From positions 1 through 32,834 of IMG/VR virus record IMGVR_UViG_3300028840_001438: a stretch of DNA of 32,834 nt; one strand, 5' to 3'. This stretch comes from a virus. This document shows, piece after piece, positions 1,640 through 24,091 of the stretch (position 1 is the stretch's first letter; each line of letters opens with the position of its first letter). The notes beneath the pieces are model-generated. The model ran no database searches. It was not told where the DNA came from and was given only the letters and a program-made list of their open reading frames with translations. Position numbers and translations under genes: made by a program.

Positions 1640-4600
1640 CTATTCGTGCTCGTAGAGCGCGACGCCCGCGACGACGAGTCCTGTCGCGGTCGAACCGAAG
1701 TGCGAGAGCTTCTGCGAGTCCGTCGAGCTCGACGAGTAGGACGGAGAGCGCACGCGGTCGCCCGCTGCGAGCCCGTGCGCTGCTGACAGCGTGACGATGC
1801 GCGTCGTTCGGTCGAGCGCGATAATCGTCCGCGTGTATCCGGTTGGCCAGCCGCCCGGAAGCGTCGCGGGTCGCAGTAGCACGGTGTCGCCGACGTCGAA
1901 AAAGTCCAAGTCCTCGACTGTTTGTCCTGTCAGCGGCTCTCGCGCGAGCGTGTAGACGTTCGCAGCGACGGTGATTTCGTCGACAGCGGGCGTCGCAATC
2001 ACTCGCAGCGATGGAGCAAAGCCGCCGACGCGCGCTCCGTAGTAAACAAGCTCAATGTCCGCGGTTCCGTTTTCAAGCGACGGAGCAATTGCGGTCACGA
2101 GACACGCAGCGGACGTCACTCCGCGCGATCCGTCGTAGTCTATGACGTCGGCGTGCGTCAGCTCGACGACGTCTCCGAGCGCGAGCAGCATTGCGCGACC
2201 GAGCGGCAGCGTTCCGCGAAACACGCGACGCGGGTTCGAGAGCAGCGCGAAGCGACGCGTCGAAATTGGAACGAACACAGACCGCAGATCGACGACCTCG
2301 CTTGAAACCGCAAGCCCGGATAGCTTTTCCTCTTGCGACTGCGCCTCGCCGCCGTGTCGCGGTATCGAGTCCGCGTCGCGGAATTCCACGCCCGGATGAT
2401 CGTCTGACCACATAAACGTCAACGCGTTTACGATCTCGTCGTCGACCATCGACTCGACAGTCGCGTCGGCGGTGAAATCGCTCGCAACGAGCGAATCGTT
2501 TGCTCGAGCAGCGGACGGACGAACGATCTGCACAAGTCGGACGAGACGCGCGCCGGTTAACCGGTCGATGCCCTGCGTGATTCCGTTCCCGAACGAACGC
2601 GCGAGCGGCCCCACGACGTCCGCGACCTCTTTCGGGTCGTCGCGGTCAAATCGCGTTAGGATTGACGACAGGCCGGGCGGTCCGTTGCCCGCTGCGACGA
2701 TCGACGACTGATCGAGCTGCGACGTATCCATGCCGAGCCCGTCATGCAAAACGTCGTATGTTCCGCGCACGTTGTCGCCGTGCGCGGACGCGAGTATCTG
2801 CCCGACCGCGACCGGCATTGTCACCGCTGCGAGTGCGACCATCGGGCGCGCGACGATCGGCGCGTCAAAGTCGACCATCGAAACAGGCCACGGATACGCC
2901 TGCCAGTCTTCGTCATTGAACCGGACCTGCGCGGTGTTCTCGGTCAGCGTGTACGAGTAAACGGTTCGACCGTCCGGCGCAGCGTGCGAATTGATAGCGG
3001 ACACGCCGACAGTCTGCCGGACTTGATCGCCGCTCGGGTGCGTTCCTTGCAACTCAAGTTGCGCGGGCAACACGCCGCCGAACACATCGTCATCGAGCGT
3101 GATTCGTCGTTCGCCGTGTTGATAAAACGCGAGCGGACATCCGACCATCGGAACGACTGCTCGACCCTGCGAGTCTGGACCGGGATCGAACCGATTTCCG
3201 CGCTCCGGTATCCATCGACGACCGACAGGACCATAGCCGCCCGGCTCGTTCGGCGATTGCGGCTGAATTCCGACGACGCAGACCGCATCGACGTTGCCCT
3301 GTTCCTGCGGAATCCCGCCGACGATGTTTACGACGAGCGCGCGCGCTGGGACGTTTGGCGTCAGCGCGAGACGCGTTCCGCCCGCCTCAAGTCTGATGTC
3401 CGCCCATCGACCGTTCGGGCTTGTGTACGTTCCAGGGCTCCAGTCCGCGTTGACTTTGTCAATCAGCGCGCTCGGCCACGCGAGAACTTCCGGCGACGTC
3501 GAGCCGTCATGAAACACCGCTTCGATGTAATCGAACAGGATCGGATTCCGCGCGCGGCGGTTTTCCTGCGCAGCCCACGCGCCGGACGTCTGTATTTCGT
3601 TCCGCGGCGGCGCGGTCGCGAACGCGTTGATTTCACTCAGATCGGAACCGCTCGTCTCGATAACGCCGCGCCGCACATCGCCGGACGCAAAAGTCGGGTC
3701 GAAAATTGCCGCCGCGTCTGCAATCTGATCCGCCGTGACTTCGATTGTCCCAGCGCCGCCCGCTCCAGCACTCGCCCAGATGTCGACGACGTCAATTCCC
3801 GCGCCTAGCGGCATCACTATCGACGCGCGCGCGCGCCCGGCGTAACCATCGCTGAAAACATGAACGCCGCGCGATACGGTCGTTTCCTGCGCAACTCCGT
3901 ATCCGGGCAGCTTGTTTTTTAGACGCGCGACGTCCGGCGCGAGAGTGACTGTGATCGTAACGCCGTCCGCGTCGAGTCGCGGCGGCTGATCGATGAACCC
4001 GCGAACGAGATCGATCGCGTTTGCGACGGAGCCGTCATCGCGGAGCACATAGCCGAGCAGTCGAGCTCGTCGACCTCGAAACGCGACGCACTCGCTCGTA
4101 ACGAGGGGGGCGAACCCGCCCGAGTCGACGACGAAATGCGCAGACGCCTGCGTGCCGAGCTGTCCGCGAGTAAGCCCCGTGAACAGCGTCGAGCCGGAAA
4201 CGCCGGTGTACGACAGGCATTCTTGACCGATCCAGAGATAGCCCGCGCCCGCGAACGCGCTGTTATCCGCGACAGTCAGCGACGCAAGCGCGGCGCCCGG
4301 TGCCTGCGATGCGACGTCCGCTGCAAGTCGCGTCGCGCTCGTCGCTCCGTTTGCGCCCATGCGGAGCAGCGCGGACGCTGCGCCGTTGCCGCCGAGCTCG
4401 ATCGGTCCGGTGTCCGCGATCTTGACCGTCGCGCCGCCGCCGTCTGCGATCATCTGCGCGAGGTCGAATCGCGAGCTCTCGAGCACGGTTCCGCCGCGAC
4501 CGACGAGCAGACCGGGCCGCGCGACGTACGGAGACGAGACGCCCGGATCTGCGTGCGAGTAGAAGCGCTCCGCGAGCCCGTCGATTTCGAGAACGAGCGC

Positions 4601-7779: not shown

Positions 7780-9777
7780 CTACGCGGGCAGCGCGCGACG
7801 CGTCGAGTCGTAGCGCGAACCACGAACCGCGGCACGATTGATGCCGCGATCGAGCGATTCACCGCCCAAGAACACGTTAAACGTCGATTGCCGCGACGAC
7901 CCGCCGCGCAGCGGTGCGCCGCTTCCGCGACGGATCGTGCGCTCGCTCTCGATGTCGCCGCCTGTCACTCGACCGGAGCCGCCGCTCGCGCCGCCCGTCA
8001 CTCCGGGAATCTGCGCTTTGACGTCGCCGCCGAGCGCGACACCGGAGCCGACGAGCGCGAGCCCGACGCCGAGCCCGGCCGCAGATGCAGTCGCGAGAGG
8101 ACCGGCCAGCGGCTGAAGCCACGGGACGAATGCGAAAATGCCGGCAAGCGCAAGAAAGCTAATCGCCTGCGCCATAAGCTGTTGTCCTGCGAAAACAAGC
8201 GCATTCCCGAGCGCGACGTTAAACGCCTCGCCTGCGAACAGCGCAGACACCGCGGCCTGACCGAACGCCTGCGTGATTTGTCCGATCGCTGGAGCAGCGA
8301 CGCCCGCGATTATCTGCGACGCAGACTTCGCGGAGGACGCGAGACGCGCCCACGCTGCGGCGTTCGCGTCGAGCATCGAAATCGACGCGAATCGCGATTC
8401 GCGCTCCGACTCTGCCGCCGCCGCTTCTGCCGCGCGCTCGCGTCGTCGCGCTTCAATGCGCGCCTCAACGCCCTGCGCGACGAGTCGCAACCGCTGTTGC
8501 TCGAGCGCTTCCGCTTTGCGCTGCGCTTCCGCCTGCGCTGCGAGCTCGCGCGCGGCCTGTTCGCGTGCGGTGTCCTGCAACGCGCGTCCGCGGTCGAATT
8601 GCTCTCCGCGACGACCGCGTCCTCGTCGAGCTGCGAGCGCGCGCTGTCGCGCGGCTTCCGCTGGGTCTGCGACGCCGACGCCGAAGCGCTGGATGAATGC
8701 GGGCAACGCGTCCGGCGTCAGCGACCCGCGAATCGCGCCGGTTACGCGGTCGAACGCGCGCTCCCATGCTCCCGCGACTGCGTCTGCCGCGTTGACGAAC
8801 GGCTGTGCGGCGTTTTTTGCGGACGCTTTCGCGGCGCTCGCAAACTGCGTCGCGGCTTCGGCGAAGCGGCTTTGCAGCGCTTCGATCCTCTGCGCCGCCA
8901 CCCGCTGGGCGCTGTGGCCCTGCGTGTAGAACCGCGCCAGTTTCTCGTATTCGGTCCACGCTGCGCGCGCGGCGTCTCCGCTGTCGCGCAGCGCTCGAGC
9001 AGTCTCGTTCGAGCGCAGGCGCGCGCGCTCCGTCGCGCCGCTGAAGTCGTCAAGCGCCATCAGTGCGCGACCGAACGCGACGCTAAACAGCTTTGACGCT
9101 GCGTCGCCGACGTTGTCGAGCTCCGCGGACAGTCGCTCAAACTGATCTGCCGCGCGGTCGGTCGGCGCAGAGGCGATCAGCTTGTTTCCGGCGCGCACGA
9201 ATTCGTTAAAAAACGCCTGTTTCTTCTGCGCGTCGTCGAGCTGCGCTGCGGTTGTGCCGATGCTCGCGGCATAGCGCTTGTACGCGCCTTCGGTGTCGAG
9301 AACGATTCCGAGATTGTCGAGCCAGAGCTTCGACTGTCTGGCGAGCCCGACCGTGACGGACTCCATGGCGAATCGAACATCGATCCCGAGAACGCCGGCC
9401 GCGCTCTTTGCGACCTGCGTTGCTTTCTGGAATTGCTGCTGATTGAGCCCGAGCGCCTGCGCCATGTTGTTGAAGCGCAACAGGTCCGCGTCGGTAACGG
9501 TTCCAGCGACAGCGGCACGCAGGCGGTTGACGTCCGCTGCGGTCGTTCCGAGACGACGCGCGGCGTTCTCGAGGTCGCGGAGCTTCGCGCCCTCCGCGGC
9601 TTGTTCCAGTGCGACGTTGAACGCTGCAAACGCTGCGCCTGCGGCGGTCGCGCCCGCTGCGGCGACCTTAAGCGCGGTGTTTACGCCGCCGAGCGCGGAG
9701 GACACGCCTTTGAGATCGCGTTTCGCCTTGTCTGCGCCCTCGACCAACAGCCGCACGATTTCACGGGTGATCGCCAC
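7780..9777 (-). CDS. Tail tape measure protein
   Basis: About 665 residues from the GTG at 9777. This start overlaps the stop of the upstream GT frame by one base (TAGTG) and fits the clearly protein-like beginning AITREIVRLLVEGADKAKRD; an upstream extension to 9951 reads only an arginine-rich shadow of the chaperone gene. The protein has an Ala-rich hydrophobic helix near residues 35-52, long charged helical and coiled-coil stretches (REQAARELAAQAEAQRKAEA in the middle), and a C-terminal hydrophobic Gly/Ala region (about residues 545-610). This is the usual design of a tape measure that sets tail length and is threaded during DNA ejection. By the family rule of roughly 0.15 nm per residue the tail would be near 100 nm. 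Confidence 0.85.
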   Translation of the reverse strand: MAITREIVRLLVEGADKAKRDLKGVSSALGGVNTALKVAAAGATAAGAAFAAFNVALEQAAEGAKLRDLENAARRLGTTAADVNRLRAAVAGTVTDADLLRFNNMAQALGLNQQQFQKATQVAKSAAGVLGIDVRFAMESVTVGLARQSKLWLDNLGIVLDTEGAYKRYAASIGTTAAQLDDAQKKQAFFNEFVRAGNKLIASAPTDRAADQFERLSAELDNVGDAASKLFSVAFGRALMALDDFSGATERARLRSNETARALRDSGDAARAAWTEYEKLARFYTQGHSAQRVAAQRIEALQSRFAEAATQFASAAKASAKNAAQPFVNAADAVAGAWERAFDRVTGAIRGSLTPDALPAFIQRFGVGVADPAEAARQRALAARRGRGRRGEQFDRGRALQDTAREQAARELAAQAEAQRKAEALEQQRLRLVAQGVEARIEARRRERAAEAAAAESERESRFASISMLDANAAAWARLASSAKSASQIIAGVAAPAIGQITQAFGQAAVSALFAGEAFNVALGNALVFAGQQLMAQAISFLALAGIFAFVPWLQPLAGPLATASAAGLGVGLALVGSGVALGGDVKAQIPGVTGGASGGSGRVTGGDIESERTIRRGSGAPLRGGSSRQSTFNVFLGGESLDRGINRAAVRGSRYDSTRRALPA

Positions 9778-10714
9778 TACCGCGCCCCCTGTCGTTGCGC
9801 CCGCTCCAATTCCTCGCGCTGTATCGTATCGCGTTCGGCGGTCACTACGCACACCGCATCGACCGCAGCGGCGGACATCGGGCCGAGAACGCTTTCGAGC
9901 GCGCCGCCGTTCGCTGCGACGCGCAGCGCTCGAAAGACGCGACCCACCCACGGCTCGGTGCTTGGTCCGCCGCGCAACTCGTCGCGCTCAACCGTGCTCA
10001 TTTGCGAGCCGCCAAACAGCGACAGCGGACAGACTCTCCAGCGCGTTTCATCCATCATCGGGTGAGGATAAACCTCCATGCCCGGCGTCTCGCGCATTTG
10101 CTCGCCACATCTGCCGCGCCGCTCCCACGTCTCCGGGCGCTCCGCGCAGTGACGACAGGACCAGCGATTGCCGCTGTCGTCTTCTGCGTATCGAACCGCT
10201 AAACGGAGCGCGAGAGCTGCGCTTTTGGGAGGACGGACACCCGTTCGATGTGCGTCGCGAGCTCGACCGCTGCCGCTGTGCTGTGCTCGATGACGTACGC
10301 GACCTCGTCGTCCGGGTCGACCATCGCTGCGCGACAGAGCTCGAGCGCGCGCGCTTCCATATAGCGCGCGTGTCGATTGATGCGCTCGACGTCCTCGTCG
10401 TCGAGAAATTCGAGTCCGCTCGCGTCTTTCGACTGCACCGCGGACGCGAGCAGTCGCGCGCCGCTGACGCTGCGGCGCGCACCGGGCGACTCGTTCGCGC
10501 GGTCCTCGCACGCGTCGAGCTCGCGTCGCGACAGCGGTCGCACGGTGATTCGCGTTGCGGTGTCTGGAATCGTCAGGAAGGACAGGTCGCTCGTTTCAGC
10601 GTAGCGCGCGAGCGCTTCCGCGTCGTTGTTCTCTGCGATGTCCGGGTCGACGGCGAGAACGACCGAAACGCGGTCGTCCGTTGACAGACGCGCGATCGCG
10701 CGAGTGAGTGCCAC
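9777..10714 (-). CDS. Tail assembly chaperone GT (-1 frameshift fusion)
   Basis: The G gene continues in the -1 frame to the stop at 9779-9777, which overlaps the tape measure start. A perfect slippery heptamer CCCAAAA (10229-10223, zero-frame codons CCA AAA, G codons 163-164) joins the frames. Slippage would give about 312 residues: 164 from G and about 148 from the T frame. The T part contains a cysteine cluster (WSCRHC, then RGRC, then WRVC) that may bind zinc. In lambda and relatives the G and GT proteins chaperone the tape measure while the tail tube assembles. The T frame has no better independent start, and without the frameshift some 420 bases would be uncoded. Confidence 0.85.
10199..10714 (-). 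CDS. Tail assembly chaperone G
   Basis: This 171-residue acidic, helical protein lies between the tail tube gene and the tape measure, the standard place of the gpG-type chaperone. It starts at an ATG with GGGAG upstream. It terminates just after the CCCAAAA slippery site, so most ribosomes should make this short form and a minority the GT fusion. The middle of the protein is rich in Asp/Glu/Arg helices (FLDDEDVERINRHARYMEAR). No enzymatic motif is visible. The role is assigned by synteny and by the frameshift signal. Confidence 0.85.
   Translation of the reverse strand: MALTRAIARLSTDDRVSVVLAVDPDIAENNDAEALARYAETSDLSFLTIPDTATRITVRPLSRRELDACEDRANESPGARRSVSGARLLASAVQSKDASGLEFLDDEDVERINRHARYMEARALELCRAAMVDPDDEVAYVIEHSTAAAVELATHIERVSVLPKAQLSRSV
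10223..10229 (-). promoter_or_regulatory. Programmed -1 frameshift slippery site
   Basis: On the minus strand the sequence is C CCA AAA, an exact X XXY YYZ heptamer in the G reading frame, eight codons before the G stop. A slip of one base back leads directly into the open T frame that ends at the tape measure start. The following GC-rich sequence could form a stimulatory structure, but I did not identify a specific one. Confidence 0.85.
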
Positions 10715-10801: not shown

Positions 10802-12088
10802 CTACCGCACGAACCCGAGCACGAAATCGAGGTTCGCAGTCTGCGACGTCCCAGCGGTGTCGCCGCCGTACTGCCCCGCCCGCCACGTCATGCGCTGCTG
10901 ATTGATGCCGTTCTCGCCCTCCTGCGGCAGCGAGTCGTTCGTCAGATGCGCCGCCGGGATGCTGATGCAAAATCCCATGCCCTCGCCCTGTCGACCGCAG
11001 CCGATCAGAATGTTGCGTCGTCGACTATTGATGAAGTCGGTTCGGATCGTCGAATTGAGCTCTGTGCGCTCGACGGTCAACGTCGCCTCGATGTCCGCAA
11101 GTTCGAGCGCGGACAAACCCATCTGATTCGCCGACCCGCCCTGCTGCTGCCACGTCCCGACAATTTCAAGCGACCACGAACCGACGTTTAGGACGTTGCG
11201 CCCGAGCGCGTAGGGCGCGGTCGCGTTCCCGATCGCGTCGCTGTAGACAAAGTAGCTGCCGAGGAACGTGGCGACGGTGCCGTCCGCGACGCTCGGGTCG
11301 GTCATCGACGCGGAGCCGTCATCGTCGATGATGAGCGCGGGCACCATTTCGACAGTGACGTAAACGAGCCCGTCGCGCGGTTCAAGCGTCGCGCGACGAC
11401 AGCGACAGCCTACCGCGATGTATCGGTGCGCCAGCATATCGAAACGAATCGCGACGCTTGAACCGAGCGAAAGATTCGTGCCGAGCGACGGACCGAGCAC
11501 CGCAGCGAGTCGCATAACGTCCGCTACGTTCGGGGTGCCGGACAGCGCGGGCGAGCAAGTCAGATCGTTTCCGCCGCCGCTACTCGCTTCGGTCACAACC
11601 GAATATTCGACGCGCCCGTTTTCGGTCCACTGGAAAGGGCGACCCGCGAGCATGTTCGCCGCGATCGTCGGCTCGAAGTTGTTTGCGTCGGTGCCGCCGA
11701 CAACCGTGTCGGTATCCGCGCCCGCATCACTAAACCCAAGCAACGTATTGAGACAGCGCATGATCGGGATCTGGTTATACGCGCTAAACGTCGTCGCAGC
11801 GCCGATCCCACGCACCGGAGCCGTCAGCGTCAGCGCGTCGATTTTCCGACCGGGCTGCGGCGTTCCGCTTACGTTCACAGTCACCGGCTCGGGCGGCAGA
11901 CGTCCGACGCTCGAACGCGTCAGCTCGAGATCGACGTTCGGCGTCTCCTGCCCGTCGTATGTGCCCTCCGCGCGCTCGAATTCACCCGAGGTAAACGTGA
12001 GCCCGGAGACGTCAGGGACAGGCGACGTCGCGGACGGAGAGCCGAACGCGGATTCCTCCGCGACGCTGATTGTCTGTAGAGCGGGCAT
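10802..12088 (-). CDS. Major tail (tube) protein
   Basis: This 428-residue protein starts at an ATG with a strong GGAGG five bases upstream, as expected for a highly expressed structural gene. It is beta-rich (repeated Thr/Val/Gly segments such as GLTFTSGEFERAEGTYDG) and has no membrane segment. It lies directly before the G/GT chaperone and tape measure genes and after the tail-terminator-like gene, which is the canonical tail tube position. It is longer than a minimal tube protein, so it may carry an additional surface domain. A hairpin follows its stop. Confidence 0.75.
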   Translation of the reverse strand: MPALQTISVAEESAFGSPSATSPVPDVSGLTFTSGEFERAEGTYDGQETPNVDLELTRSSVGRLPPEPVTVNVSGTPQPGRKIDALTLTAPVRGIGAATTFSAYNQIPIMRCLNTLLGFSDAGADTDTVVGGTDANNFEPTIAANMLAGRPFQWTENGRVEYSVVTEASSGGGNDLTCSPALSGTPNVADVMRLAAVLGPSLGTNLSLGSSVAIRFDMLAHRYIAVGCRCRRATLEPRDGLVYVTVEMVPALIIDDDGSASMTDPSVADGTVATFLGSYFVYSDAIGNATAPYALGRNVLNVGSWSLEIVGTWQQQGGSANQMGLSALELADIEATLTVERTELNSTIRTDFINSRRRNILIGCGRQGEGMGFCISIPAAHLTNDSLPQEGENGINQQRMTWRAGQYGGDTAGTSQTANLDFVLGFVR

Positions 12089-20829: not shown

Positions 20830-21279
20830 CTACTTGTCCGCCTTCTCATCGCTGGAGCTTTCCCGCTCTTTCGCGTCTGCGTCCGCCGCCGCCTGCGCCC
20901 ACTTTCGCCAGAAATCTTGTCGTTCATCCGACTGCGTTTCTGCGACCTCGAGCCGCTGTCGCGCTCCAAATTGCTGCGGGAAGTTGCGTTCGAGTAGCCA
21001 CGCATATGCGCGCCAATCGTTGTTGTCGCGTCCAATGCGCTGAATCTCCGCGAGCCAGCGCAGACCGGCCTTGTCGCGCGCGCGCATAATGCGTTCGCGG
21101 AAGTCGCGGTAAATTTTCGGCGCTCCGTCCTCCGCTCCGCGCTTCATCCAAAGCATCGACGAGTTTTTGCCGATGCCCGCGTGCGCTTCCGCCATGTTCA
21201 TCGTGGCGCCGCCGGAAATTGCCGTCTCCATCGTCGCGATGACCTGCTCGTTTAGTTTTGTCGGACGTCCGCGCGCCAT
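20830..21279 (-). CDS. terS: Terminase small subunit
   Basis: This 149-residue protein begins with MARGRPTKLNEQVIATMETA and a helix-turn-helix (AEAHAGIGKNSSMLWMKRG), then RDFRERIMRARDKAGLRWLA and a YAWLLERNFPQQFG segment. These are typical of phage small terminase subunits that bind the packaging site. The C-terminal tail is acidic/basic and lysine rich. It sits directly before the large subunit gene. The start overlaps the CoA-transferase-like stop by one base (TGATG). Confidence 0.85.
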   Translation of the reverse strand: MARGRPTKLNEQVIATMETAISGGATMNMAEAHAGIGKNSSMLWMKRGAEDGAPKIYRDFRERIMRARDKAGLRWLAEIQRIGRDNNDWRAYAWLLERNFPQQFGARQRLEVAETQSDERQDFWRKWAQAAADADAKERESSSDEKADK

Positions 21280-21977
21280 CAGAGAATCAGCCTTCCGTTA
21301 ATGTGTCGCAGATTCTTGAGTCGCCACGCGCGGTCGCGAACCGGCTCGACGGTCATCGTTCCGCGATGCTCGACGAGCGCATTCGCGCCGTCGTTCCCGT
21401 AGCGCTCTGCGTCGAACGGATGCGCGCCGCTTGGTCGATCGACGACGAGCTCGCCCTCGACAAGTTTCGCAAGCGCTGTCGCGTGCGGAATCACGCGATG
21501 TCCGACCTCGCCGCGCGCCCACATCGCCAGCAGTTTGAACGCGAGCCAGAGCCCTGCGGTCGTGTCGCCGATGTAGAAGTCGAGAAATCCGCCGAAGTCC
21601 GCCCACGCTTGCGCCTGAGCGACGACGTCGAAAGAGCGCTCGCCGATTTCCGGGCGCAAAGACACCCACGCTACGTGATGCTCGACTGCGAGTTGCTTGG
21701 GGATGATGTCCCAGCGAGCGAGCGTCGACGCGCGGAAGTTGTCGACGACAAGGTCGTATGCGGACAATCGCCTTTGCAGCGCGTCGCGCGCGTGCTCGTT
21801 TCGCACCTGTTTTCCAGCGTTAATCCAGCGCCAGAGCTCGTCGCCCATGTGCAAACTGTGGATCGGGTCGCGTGCGTCGAGTGTGCACTTGACGACGTCG
21901 AACCCTTGCTCGGCGAGAATCATTCCGGCGTATGCGGGCGCGATGTAGCTTCCGAGCTCGAGGACGCGCGGTTTCAT
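21279..21977 (-). CDS. CaiB/BaiF family III CoA-transferase-like protein
   Basis: This 232-residue protein matches the N-terminal and catalytic part of family III CoA-transferases. VLELGSYIAPAYAGMILAEQ at residues 5-24 and GFDVVKC form the first Rossmann-like unit. AYDLVVDNFRASTLARWDI at 73-91 is the family's second signature. The IGDTTAGLWLAFKLLAMWAR region supplies Asp138 at the position of the catalytic aspartate that forms the acyl anhydride in formyl-CoA transferase. It is only about 60% of usual length and appears to lack the small domain. Start overlaps the PanD-like stop (ATGA). It may load a carboxylic acid on CoA, or act as a divergent acyl-transferase; substrate unknown. Confidence 0.75.
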   Translation of the reverse strand: MKPRVLELGSYIAPAYAGMILAEQGFDVVKCTLDARDPIHSLHMGDELWRWINAGKQVRNEHARDALQRRLSAYDLVVDNFRASTLARWDIIPKQLAVEHHVAWVSLRPEIGERSFDVVAQAQAWADFGGFLDFYIGDTTAGLWLAFKLLAMWARGEVGHRVIPHATALAKLVEGELVVDRPSGAHPFDAERYGNDGANALVEHRGTMTVEPVRDRAWRLKNLRHINGRLIL

Positions 21978-22333
21978 CGCTTGTGCTCATACTGAAACGT
22001 CGTCGAGATTCGATTTCCCTCGCCGCAGTAGACAACGTCCGCAGGCTTGAACGACTCGCGCATTGCATACGCGATGATGACGCAGCGATCGTCGAGCTCT
22101 CCGAGTCGAGCGCCGCCGCCGTTAAGCGACAACTCCGCGTCGCGACCCTCGATTGCATATGTCGTCCAGCGTTCGCCGTTGTTTAGATTGATTACGTCGA
22201 CGCGCTCGAATGGCTCGATGTTCGCAGCCTTAAGCAGCGCAGGACACACCGCGATCGAGCCGTGATATTCGACGGATTTCGCGGTCACTCGAATGTTGTG
22301 GATCTTTGCGCTGACGTAGTGTCGCAACGTCAT
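21974..22333 (-). CDS. PanD-like aspartate 1-decarboxylase
   Basis: This 119-residue protein is collinear with bacterial PanD (126 residues in E. coli), the pyruvoyl enzyme that makes beta-alanine from L-aspartate. The key residues are all present: K10, H12, Y23, the self-cleavage pair G25-S26 in YHGS, R55, T58, Y59 and N71 in LSLNGGG. Conserved blocks are SAKIHNIRVT and WTTYAIEG. It overlaps both neighbours by ATGA, between an ABC-GNAT fusion and a CoA-transferase-like gene. In cells, beta-alanine feeds pantothenate and CoA. Here it could raise CoA supply or provide an amino-acid group for modification. Activity on aspartate itself is unproven; another amino acid substrate is possible. Confidence 0.85.
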   Translation of the reverse strand: MTLRHYVSAKIHNIRVTAKSVEYHGSIAVCPALLKAANIEPFERVDVINLNNGERWTTYAIEGRDAELSLNGGGARLGELDDRCVIIAYAMRESFKPADVVYCGEGNRISTTFQYEHKR

Positions 22334-23436
22334 GATGCACCGCCCTTTAGTGGAACGTAGCCGAAACTCGCCGTGCTTAATCTGCGCGTTTGTCGCTGTG
22401 ACTTGCGCAATTCAGCTTTTGCATTGGGTCCCGACTTTAAGCGCGCGCCTCTGCCGAGCATCTGCCAGCGCGGCGAGCGCGAATACGCGCGGATCATCGT
22501 CGGGTTTGCGGTTGAGTTGTGATAGCGAAACCCGCGCGCGTGCAGCCATTCGCCGAGCCAGTCGTCGAACCACGGTCCAATCCCTAGCCCCTGCCAGTCC
22601 GGCAGAACCACGAGCCTATGACCTCGTTTAATGTTGCGAGTGCGAGCGTGCGGGAAATGCAAAAACGAGTTAAACGCGACCGGCGCTCCATCGACGAGCG
22701 CGACGAACGCGCGACAAGCGCTGTGCAACTCCGCAGTCAGATAGTGGTGACGAGCAAAGAGTCGCCAAGCGGCCCGAGGCTGCGCAGTCTGTCGAATCTC
22801 GATGTCGACGCGCGGGCGGGGTTGAACCGACCTCCGCGCAAAGTGACTGTCCGCCATATCGAGAATCCAGTCGGGCTGTAGCCAGTCGATGACGTCGTAA
22901 TGACAGGTGACGGCGACGAATCGCCGTTTCATTCTGCGAACGTGCTTTGCGATTGCTGCGCTCGCGACGCGCGCGACCTGTCGATCCACAACGGACGTAA
23001 ATTCGTCGAGGACGACGAGTTCGGGTTCCTCGATGAGCGCGCGCGCGACTGTCGCTCGAAACTGCTCGCCGTTCGACAGCGTGCCGAAGGGACGCATCCA
23101 AGCAGGAGGCGTCGAGAAACCGACCTTTCCGAGCGCTGTCGCGATGTCGCGTGTCGAAACGTCGTTTGGGAAGTCGTCGAGTAGCGCGCGCGTCGCGCTC
23201 CAGTCGTAGCCCTCGACGATGTGCTCGCCAAACAGCTCGCGCGCCGCGGTCGTCTTTCCGCTGCCGGACGCGCCGACAATCAGACCGATACTCCAGTCGT
23301 CTGCGTCAATGTCAGTTTCAAACGTCCACTCGTTTCGAGAGGTCGTCGCCGCTGGGACGTCGAACAGCGACTCGATTTGTTTCACGCGCGGAGAGCGCTC
23401 GACGCTGCACTCGCGCGTCAGATGATGGCGCGGCAC
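22330..23436 (-). CDS. ABC-ATPase fused to GNAT acyltransferase
   Basis: I take the GTG at 23436 (368 residues): it lies seven bases after AGGAGG and overlaps the end of the ParB-like gene by 19 bases; further upstream the frame is only an arginine-rich shadow. Residues 48-215 are an ABC ATPase with Walker A GASGSGKT (55-62), signature LSNGEQFR (120-127), Walker B LVVLDEF (140-146) and H-loop His179. Residues 222-325 are a GNAT domain with LFARHHYLTAEL and acyl-CoA-binding motif VVLPDWQGLGIG (276-287). There are no membrane segments, so it is not a transporter. Phage GNAT proteins of this type can be base-modification enzymes (Mu Mom is a GNAT); that link is inference. Confidence 0.85.
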   Translation of the reverse strand: MPRHHLTRECSVERSPRVKQIESLFDVPAATTSRNEWTFETDIDADDWSIGLIVGASGSGKTTAARELFGEHIVEGYDWSATRALLDDFPNDVSTRDIATALGKVGFSTPPAWMRPFGTLSNGEQFRATVARALIEEPELVVLDEFTSVVDRQVARVASAAIAKHVRRMKRRFVAVTCHYDVIDWLQPDWILDMADSHFARRSVQPRPRVDIEIRQTAQPRAAWRLFARHHYLTAELHSACRAFVALVDGAPVAFNSFLHFPHARTRNIKRGHRLVVLPDWQGLGIGPWFDDWLGEWLHARGFRYHNSTANPTMIRAYSRSPRWQMLGRGARLKSGPNAKAELRKSQRQTRRLSTASFGYVPLKGGAS

Positions 23437-23960
23437 GTCAAACCCTCCTGCTCGAACGTCTCGAGCATTTCGCGCTGATGCGCTTCGCTGTCGCACTCGA
23501 CGATAATCGCGAACGTTTCGCCGATGTCGTCGACTCCGGCGTCGCCGGGCTCTGGCAGCGTGTCGTTTAGGTCGTCGAGCAACGCGTCGAGTCGTAGATC
23601 GTCCATCAGTTGCGGCGACTCCGCGCGAATCTGCTCGAGCAGCGATTGCAGACCGTCCGTAAATTCGCCTGCAATGTGCGGGGAGTTTAGCGCGACGTTT
23701 AGCGCGCGCTCCTCCGCTGGCGAAAGCTCGACAAGCGCGACCTGCACCTCTTTCTCGCCCTGTGCGAGCAGCGCGCGCACGCGCTGATGGCCGCCGACGA
23801 TTGTGCTGGTCTTTGCGTTGACGACGATCGGCTGCACGAGCCCGAAACGGTCGAGCGAGCGTTTTAACCCGTTCATTGCCGGGCCGCTGATGGTGCGCGG
23901 GTTGTAGTCTGCCGCGACAAGCTCGTCGAGCGCTCGTCGTTCGTATCGAACCTCTTTCAT
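23418..23960 (-). CDS. ParB-like (ParB/sulfiredoxin fold) protein
   Basis: This 180-residue protein has the ParB N-terminal domain motifs: YNPRTISG (residues 19-26), FGLVQPIVVN (39-48), IVGGHQRVRALLAQG (54-68) and ALVELSPAEERALNVALN. The C-terminal part is acidic and lacks the ParB dimerisation domain. Stand-alone phage ParB-like proteins occur next to methyltransferases and PAPS-reductase-like proteins and may act as nucleotide-dependent DNA-binding or nuclease components. It overlaps the small membrane protein gene upstream (ATGA) and the ABC-GNAT gene downstream. Confidence 0.85.
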   Translation of the reverse strand: MKEVRYERRALDELVAADYNPRTISGPAMNGLKRSLDRFGLVQPIVVNAKTSTIVGGHQRVRALLAQGEKEVQVALVELSPAEERALNVALNSPHIAGEFTDGLQSLLEQIRAESPQLMDDLRLDALLDDLNDTLPEPGDAGVDDIGETFAIIVECDSEAHQREMLETFEQEGLTCRAII

Positions 23961-24091
23961 CGTTCGTCCTCGTCAAATCGCGTCATCGACTCGATGACCA
24001 ACAGCGCCGCCGCCGCCGGCAGAACAAGCCACGCCGGAACCGCTGCGATCGTCACCGCACAGTTAATCGCTCGGAGCGCTGCGCGTCTCAT
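23957..24091 (-). CDS. Small single-pass membrane protein
   Basis: A 44-residue peptide starts at an ATG that overlaps the stop of the zinc-ribbon gene (ATGA), and its own stop overlaps the ParB-like start (ATGA). It has a basic N-terminus (MRRAALR) and one hydrophobic helix (AVTIAAVPAWLVLPAAAALL), followed by an acidic tail. It could be a tiny holin-like or superinfection-related peptide, but no lysis enzyme is near. It might also tether a partner to the membrane. The overlaps on both sides argue for a real gene. Confidence 0.5.
   Translation of the reverse strand: MRRAALRAINCAVTIAAVPAWLVLPAAAALLVIESMTRFDEDER

Follow-up and report, generated by a model that had tools for sequence, protein, structure and literature searches.

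A probable -1 frameshifted tail assembly chaperone with a conserved four-cysteine T domain, a candidate metal site, in an uncultivated siphovirus-like phage

The DNA analysed here is the whole 32,834-base IMG/VR virus record IMGVR_UViG_3300028840_001438 (hereafter the window), and the question that it raises concerns two overlapping frames, G and T, which sit on its minus strand between the genes for a presumed major tail protein and the tape measure protein, as in lambda-type G/GT tail assembly chaperone pairs: is T joined to G by a programmed -1 frameshift, and do the cysteines of the T domain form a metal site? A conserved -1 frameshift in the tail genes of tailed phages was reportedly described by Xu, Hendrix and Duda in 2004. 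G (10199 to 10714, minus strand) is an open reading frame (ORF) of 171 amino acids with a GTG start and would be the unshifted chaperone product, and the T frame (9777 to 10229, minus strand) runs for 150 residues from CCC AAA AGC to a TAG stop. Judging from the comparisons given below, a ribosomal slip very probably gives the virus a longer version of its tail chaperone; the -1 frameshift is supported because an identical 13-mer is found at the site in six records, conservation in the T frame begins at the site, and three relatives have no upstream start for T.

The sequence-only reading of this locus had proposed an exact -1 slippery heptamer in the correct frame and a T frame that ends on the tape measure start, and both proposals were confirmed. 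The heptamer CCCAAAA (10223 to 10229, minus strand) begins on the last base of a G codon (CTC CCA AAA GCG), which is the X XXY YYZ phase, and whole-ORF scans of G in the window and in two relatives (L002 and L005, below) found it to be the sole XXXYYY site in which Y is A or T. A -1 shift at this point joins LPK to S and gives a fusion of about 312 amino acids, the G stop codon starting 28 nucleotides past the first base of the heptamer, and the T stop (TAG, 9779 to 9777) overlaps the GTG of the tape measure gene (TAGTG). CCCAAAA occurs twice on the two strands of the window against 0.6 expected, and at least two copies were seen in 12 of 100 shuffles, so the heptamer by itself is unremarkable and the case rests on its phase, place and conservation.

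Scans of the viral contigs of IMG/VR recovered five further records with the G–T region of the window, and scans of genome contigs recovered no relative. These records are 3300005613_000231 (L002), 3300001419_000051 (L004), 3300005613_000542 (L005), 3300017990_000249 (L006) and 3300017987_001286 (L007), the last two being identical to each other over the stretch shown and both ending 93 nucleotides into T. The 13-mer CTCCCAAAAGCGC, which includes the heptamer, is identical at the site in all six records (five distinct sequences), and no identical run around the site exceeds it in length between the window and L005 or between the window and L006, where the flanks are 48–49% identical; between L005 and L006, a close pair, it is not the longest such run. 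The G homologue of L002 is 46% identical to that of the window by tblastn and 51% by alignment, and those of L005 and L006 are 31–32% identical; T identity to the window is 65% in L002, 64% in L004 and 43% in L005. An in-phase -1 slippery site near the end of G that is kept in relatives is a feature typical of lambda-type G/GT.

The pattern of substitution also follows the T frame beyond this site. Downstream of the G stop, ungapped comparison of the window with L002 gave 5, 7 and 20 substitutions at T-frame positions 1, 2 and 3, respectively (20 of 32 on the third), and comparison with L005 gave 12, 12 and 23 (23 of 47 on the third). A weaker signal can be seen at G-frame positions 1, 2 and 3 upstream of the site (20, 18 and 27 between the window and L002; 9, 4 and 21 between L005 and L006). 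The G+C content of third codon positions is 0.82–0.96 in the G frame upstream of the site and 0.74–0.88 in the T frame downstream, the periodicity switching frame. When the open T frames of the window and L002 were compared by BLASTP with the 94 codons before the heptamer included, homology began four residues before PKS.

The cysteines described in the sequence-only reading as SCRHC, GRC and RVC are present in T. Numbered from the P of PKS, they are C25 and C28 (CxxC; 10146 to 10157, minus strand), C41 (GRC; 10107 to 10109, minus strand) and C67 (VCP; 10029 to 10031, minus strand), with the pattern CxxC-x12-C-x25-C, and are followed by C127 (9849 to 9851, minus strand). The alignment of related T domains suggested as a check found C25, C28, C41 and C67 invariant in the window, L002, L004 and L005, where they are four cysteines among 50 invariant columns, and C25 and C28 are also present in the partial T of L006, which makes five aligned sequences for the CxxC. 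All four full-length T domains thus have four conserved cysteines with at least one CxxC, as is expected of a zinc-binding (Cys4) set. C127 probably lies outside the metal site, as it is not conserved in L005. The earlier suggestion of a zinc site is therefore supported as to the cysteines, and metal binding itself is putative; the best reading of these sequences is that the candidate Cys4 set is probably a metal site, with zinc as the likely ion.

Taken together, these features would fit a siphovirus-like phage with a G/GT pair of tail assembly chaperones. On this reading most ribosomes would terminate at the end of G, and a minority would slip by -1 on C CCA AAA, where P-site tRNA-Pro and A-site tRNA-Lys would re-pair to CCC AAA and so yield the GT fusion of about 312 amino acids. 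By analogy with lambda, the tape measure protein would be coated by many copies of G and few of GT, and the major tail protein would be recruited by the T part. The Cys4 set of T (CxxC, C and CP) would most likely hold a single structural metal ion (probably zinc) and so give stability to the T fold, by which docking onto the tail tube subunit would take place. For lambda, passages of PMC5009743 give a molar ratio of 30:1, with G binding the tape measure protein and T binding the major tail protein. The window resembles lambda gpG/gpGT in that G and T lie between the major tail and tape measure genes, a -1 heptamer lies near the end of G, T overlaps the tape measure start and an upstream T start is missing in L005, L006 and L007. 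It differs from lambda in its heptamer (CCCAAAA versus GGGAAAG in the lambda record) and, unlike the T of lambda, HK97, P2, phiC31, TM4, D3, Haunter and T5.142, its T has the conserved Cys4 set.

Counted by eye, the T of these eight control phages (T5.142 being counted as T by its position) has 0–2 cysteines each, with CxxC in none of the eight; of two further named phages, the T-position gene of UAntarctica has no cysteine and Rhodobacteraceae phage LS06-2018-MD06 (OP947162) has CxxC. A survey of IMG/VR was anchored on tape measure alignment and covered the best 80 of 151 relatives, three of which belong to the family of the window; at each locus the T-position frame was defined as the one whose end is closest to the start of the tape measure gene. 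Upstream DNA was too short at six loci and 10 yielded no candidate frame, leaving 64, or 47 after clustering at 90%. Twenty-one of these 47 non-redundant frames (two from the window's own family) have at least four cysteines and a CxxC in their last 165 residues, compared with 0 of 47 for the N-terminal 160 residues of the matched tape measures and 2 of 76 for downstream ORFs of at least 150 codons under the same criterion; because the frames were assigned by rule, the 26 representatives counted as negative may include genes other than T. Cysteines in tail chaperones, which had been called uncommon, are so among the named control phages but not among the uncultivated relatives surveyed. No start codon lies between the frame's stop and the CxxC in 15 of the 21 cysteine-rich frames, and 6 have one.

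Several kinds of cysteine T frame could be distinguished in these uncultivated phages. A second cysteine family, type B (e.g. L057), comprises 21 loci at 40% linkage, and its four cysteines (CxxC, FxC and YC) are invariant in 14 aligned sequences, among 22 invariant columns. Thirteen type B junctions were examined in T-frame phase and carry GGGGGAA (10), GGGAAAC (2) or GGGGGAG (1); the first and last of these motifs are overlooked by a strict XXXYYY scan and were found by inspection. GGGGGAA is listed among observed frameshift motifs in passages on PRFect (PMC10885494). Type D (e.g. L056) has AAAAAAC at 5 of 6 junctions and GGGAAAA at the other, and L108 has AAATTTT at its junction and a C-terminal half that matches type B (E 2.6e-6). 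Three relatives of type B (L039, L073 and L075) lie behind A runs, L075 matching the type B profile with E 1e-15; at the places aligned with L057 their CxxC and third cysteine are jointly absent and the fourth cysteine is kept. In another, L100 (E 9e-10), cysteines lie near the aligned places with altered spacing. Short, classical-looking T frames without CxxC were found at 12 loci, and 8 of the 9 examined lie behind AAAAAAA. Like the window's T, the cysteine T frames of types B and D and of L108 occupy the T position, have CxxC plus further cysteines, mostly lack a start before the CxxC and, where examined, carry a slippery sequence where the frame begins or close to that point; unlike it, they have other cysteine spacings, and homology is not established. 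Upstream of the tape measure gene, the IMG/VR loci L034 to L108 show several unrelated-looking cysteine-rich T families with different slippery sequences.

Among named phages, OP947162 has a tape measure protein related to that of the window (E 6e-14 over 25% of the query), and its T frame (2700 to 3185 of locus L028) is likewise the -1 frame, behind a run of eight A, between G and the tape measure gene. This T has a CxxC with a Trp seven residues after the second Cys, a later CP motif and no start codon before the CxxC, and it is annotated for its last 56 residues only (3015 to 3185), as a separate hypothetical protein. It differs from the T of the window in its A8 slippery run, in a third cysteine that is nearer and does not align with C41, and in an insert before the CP. 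In a joint alignment of the window family, OP947162 and L108, the CxxC holds the sole invariant cysteines, the CP is aligned in 5 of 6 rows and the third cysteine is not aligned. Homology between the T of OP947162 and that of the window is suggestive only, and a shared ancestry of the cysteine T domains of the window, OP947162, types B and D and L108 is possible on these alignments. The G of OP947162.1 (L028, 2248 to 2712) is annotated as 'ribonucleotide reductase', and a small out-of-frame ORF is annotated at 2848 to 2982, beside T.

The frameshift could be real and the cysteines hold no metal, being instead structural, redox-active or disulphide-forming, an alternative that we consider unlikely but serious. 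The T domains of the control phages manage without CxxC, and the AlphaFold model of T is uninformative on this point. Metal binding is favoured over it by four invariant cysteines with a CxxC in a protein that would be expected in the reducing cytoplasm, and by the joint absence of three of the four cysteines in the type B relatives, as one metal site predicts; a shared site would lead one to expect the cysteines to be present or absent together, and this falls short of proof. The combined explanation, a -1 frameshifted G/GT chaperone with a metal-binding Cys4 T, is probable on the sequence evidence, and confidence in it is tempered because the relatives that lack three cysteines have cysteines elsewhere and because room is needed for cysteines without metal.

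A number of results weigh against this combined explanation. Neither G nor T has a convincing match in Pfam, PHROGs or NCBIfam. The third-position signal in the G frame upstream of the site is weak, and it is absent in ungapped comparisons of the window with L005 (26, 30 and 32) and of L002 with L005 (26, 29 and 27). RNA structure downstream of the site is without support, with two-sided change in 1 of 22 pairs, an unfavourable covariation term and single-sequence z-scores of -0.3 to -2.0. Full-length T sequences from the window's own family number four, two of them close to each other, and the AlphaFold model of the window's T (five-sequence input) is poor, with a predicted local distance difference test score (pLDDT) of 43. 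L039, L073 and L075 carry 2–4 cysteines in all, some of them at other places. Matches between the window T family and type B are confined to 13 columns around PxWxxxxF (E 0.012 and 0.045), those with type D and L108 are short, weak and not significant (E 0.06 and 0.14), and the T of OP947162 gave E 0.0027 with a probability of 11% against the window family (by profile, one comparison) and E 0.16 against type B plus relatives. Inspection by eye found no Shine-Dalgarno-like stimulator upstream of the site that was common to all.

It was also considered whether T might be an independent gene with its own start, at GTG 10511 or internally (e.g. at an ATG 132 nucleotides past the heptamer), the heptamer being incidental. 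The T frame had been called otherwise startless, which needs qualification for the window, where a GTG (10511) that lies within G, 282 nucleotides before the heptamer, would open 244 amino acids. Within G or ahead of it, T-frame GTG codons lie 189–663 nucleotides upstream of the heptamer in the window, L002 and L004. GTG 10511 is an unlikely start, the part that it would add being rich in Arg, and the homology of T begins at the heptamer, with its conserved 13-mer, and not at this GTG. In L005, L006 and L007 the T frame has a stop 24, 26 and 26 codons upstream of the heptamer, respectively, and between that stop and the heptamer there is no ATG, GTG, TTG, CTG or ATT/ATC/ATA. A start for the whole T domain, which had been named as a finding that would refute the frameshift, is therefore excluded in these three relatives. 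Internal ATG codons occur in the window from 132 nucleotides after the heptamer onward, and the first T-frame ATG of L005 lies 180 nucleotides after it, beyond three of the four cysteines. A shorter T product may arise from such a start, and two database entries are in keeping with separate expression: the annotation of the last 56 residues in OP947162, and A0A516LCZ5, which aligns with a type B T over 105 columns at 66% identity and is shorter than the T frame, like a gene call from an internal start. Translation of T as an independent gene from its own start is nevertheless very improbable.

Slippage of RNA polymerase on the A run, rather than of the ribosome, would give the same fusion, and the A8 run of OP947162 could slip in this way. 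The window family has only AAAA, which is a short run for polymerase slippage, and the CCC part, needed only for re-pairing of tRNA, is conserved in six records; this mechanism has accordingly very little to recommend it for the window. With a single uncultivated record it might be feared that G and T are one broken gene, or that an error of sequencing or assembly separates them. The relatives already contradict this, and it can practically be dismissed: five other records, drawn from four metagenome ids, show the same arrangement and 13-mer, and the downstream substitutions respect the T frame.

As G and T lack a convincing family match, the identity of the -1 frameshifted pair rests on position and relatives. 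Against the phage collection the best match of G was at chance level (E 0.5); five of six such chance-level matches fall in Microbacterium phages, within tail chaperone genes or an unnamed gene. T gave no match or chance-level matches in the phage collection and no match in the plasmid collection, and the phage collection held nothing similar to the two further T frames compared with it, one of type B and the other of type D. A match adjoining the tape measure gene of Pseudomonas phage UAntarctica (E 0.07) was rejected: it runs antisense to the annotated gene, whose product has no cysteine. The T of the window had no Pfam match at E<=1, including any zinc ribbon or finger family; ten representatives of the cysteine-rich T frames were scanned without a convincing Pfam or PHROGs match, and six of these without an NCBIfam match. 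Sequence searches of the PDB with G, T and cysteine T representatives returned nothing convincing. The AlphaFold model of a type B T (pLDDT 63), likewise uninformative as to cysteine contacts, had no PDB match by Foldseek at E<=0.001 and one viral match, the nameless BFVD entry A0A516LCZ5 of 108 residues. Judging from its layout, the window pair would work like G/GT, and descent from known G or T families is not established.

The remainder of the window (64% G+C) carries its virion genes on the minus strand. A portal (phrog_113, E 2e-32) and a major head protein (phrog_1005, E 2e-9) were recognised, and with E 1.2e-10 the tape measure gene (7780 to 9777, minus strand, GTG start) matches phrog_3779 (tail length tape measure). 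Upstream of G lies the presumed major tail protein (10802 to 12088, minus strand; 428 amino acids), which is assigned by this position; it has no PHROGs match and is 83% identical in L002. By eye, the product of 18 to 1133, on the plus strand and thus opposite to the virion genes, resembles phosphoadenosine phosphosulphate reductase, and that of 21279 to 21977 (minus strand) resembles a class III (CaiB-type) CoA-transferase, which is odd in a phage. At 22330 to 23976 and 23418 to 23960 (minus strand) an ABC-type ATPase appears by eye to be joined to an acetyltransferase-like part, and a ParB-like product adjoins in an overlapping frame; together with the CoA-transferase these are perhaps a DNA modification set.

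As a device the frameshift is ordinary and found in textbooks, and the Cys4 kind of T domain was not met in the parts of the literature covered by searches on zinc or cysteine in tail chaperones. What is added to present knowledge is a class of T domain with a conserved cysteine set behind several different slippery sequences, which gene callers can overlook or cut short because the frame has no start. More tentatively, and as a possibility that we regard with some doubt, T domains that are produced by frameshifting and contain a metal-binding Cys4 module may be widespread in uncultivated siphophages. The module may have been gained more than once or lost in one piece, and through it tail assembly may be coupled to the zinc or redox state, with the folding of the minor, frameshifted product as the only link. 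How the T domain acts in tail assembly is poorly understood; if T is indeed stabilised by metal, its purification and structure solution could be easier, and changes to its cysteines would offer a clean test of T function.

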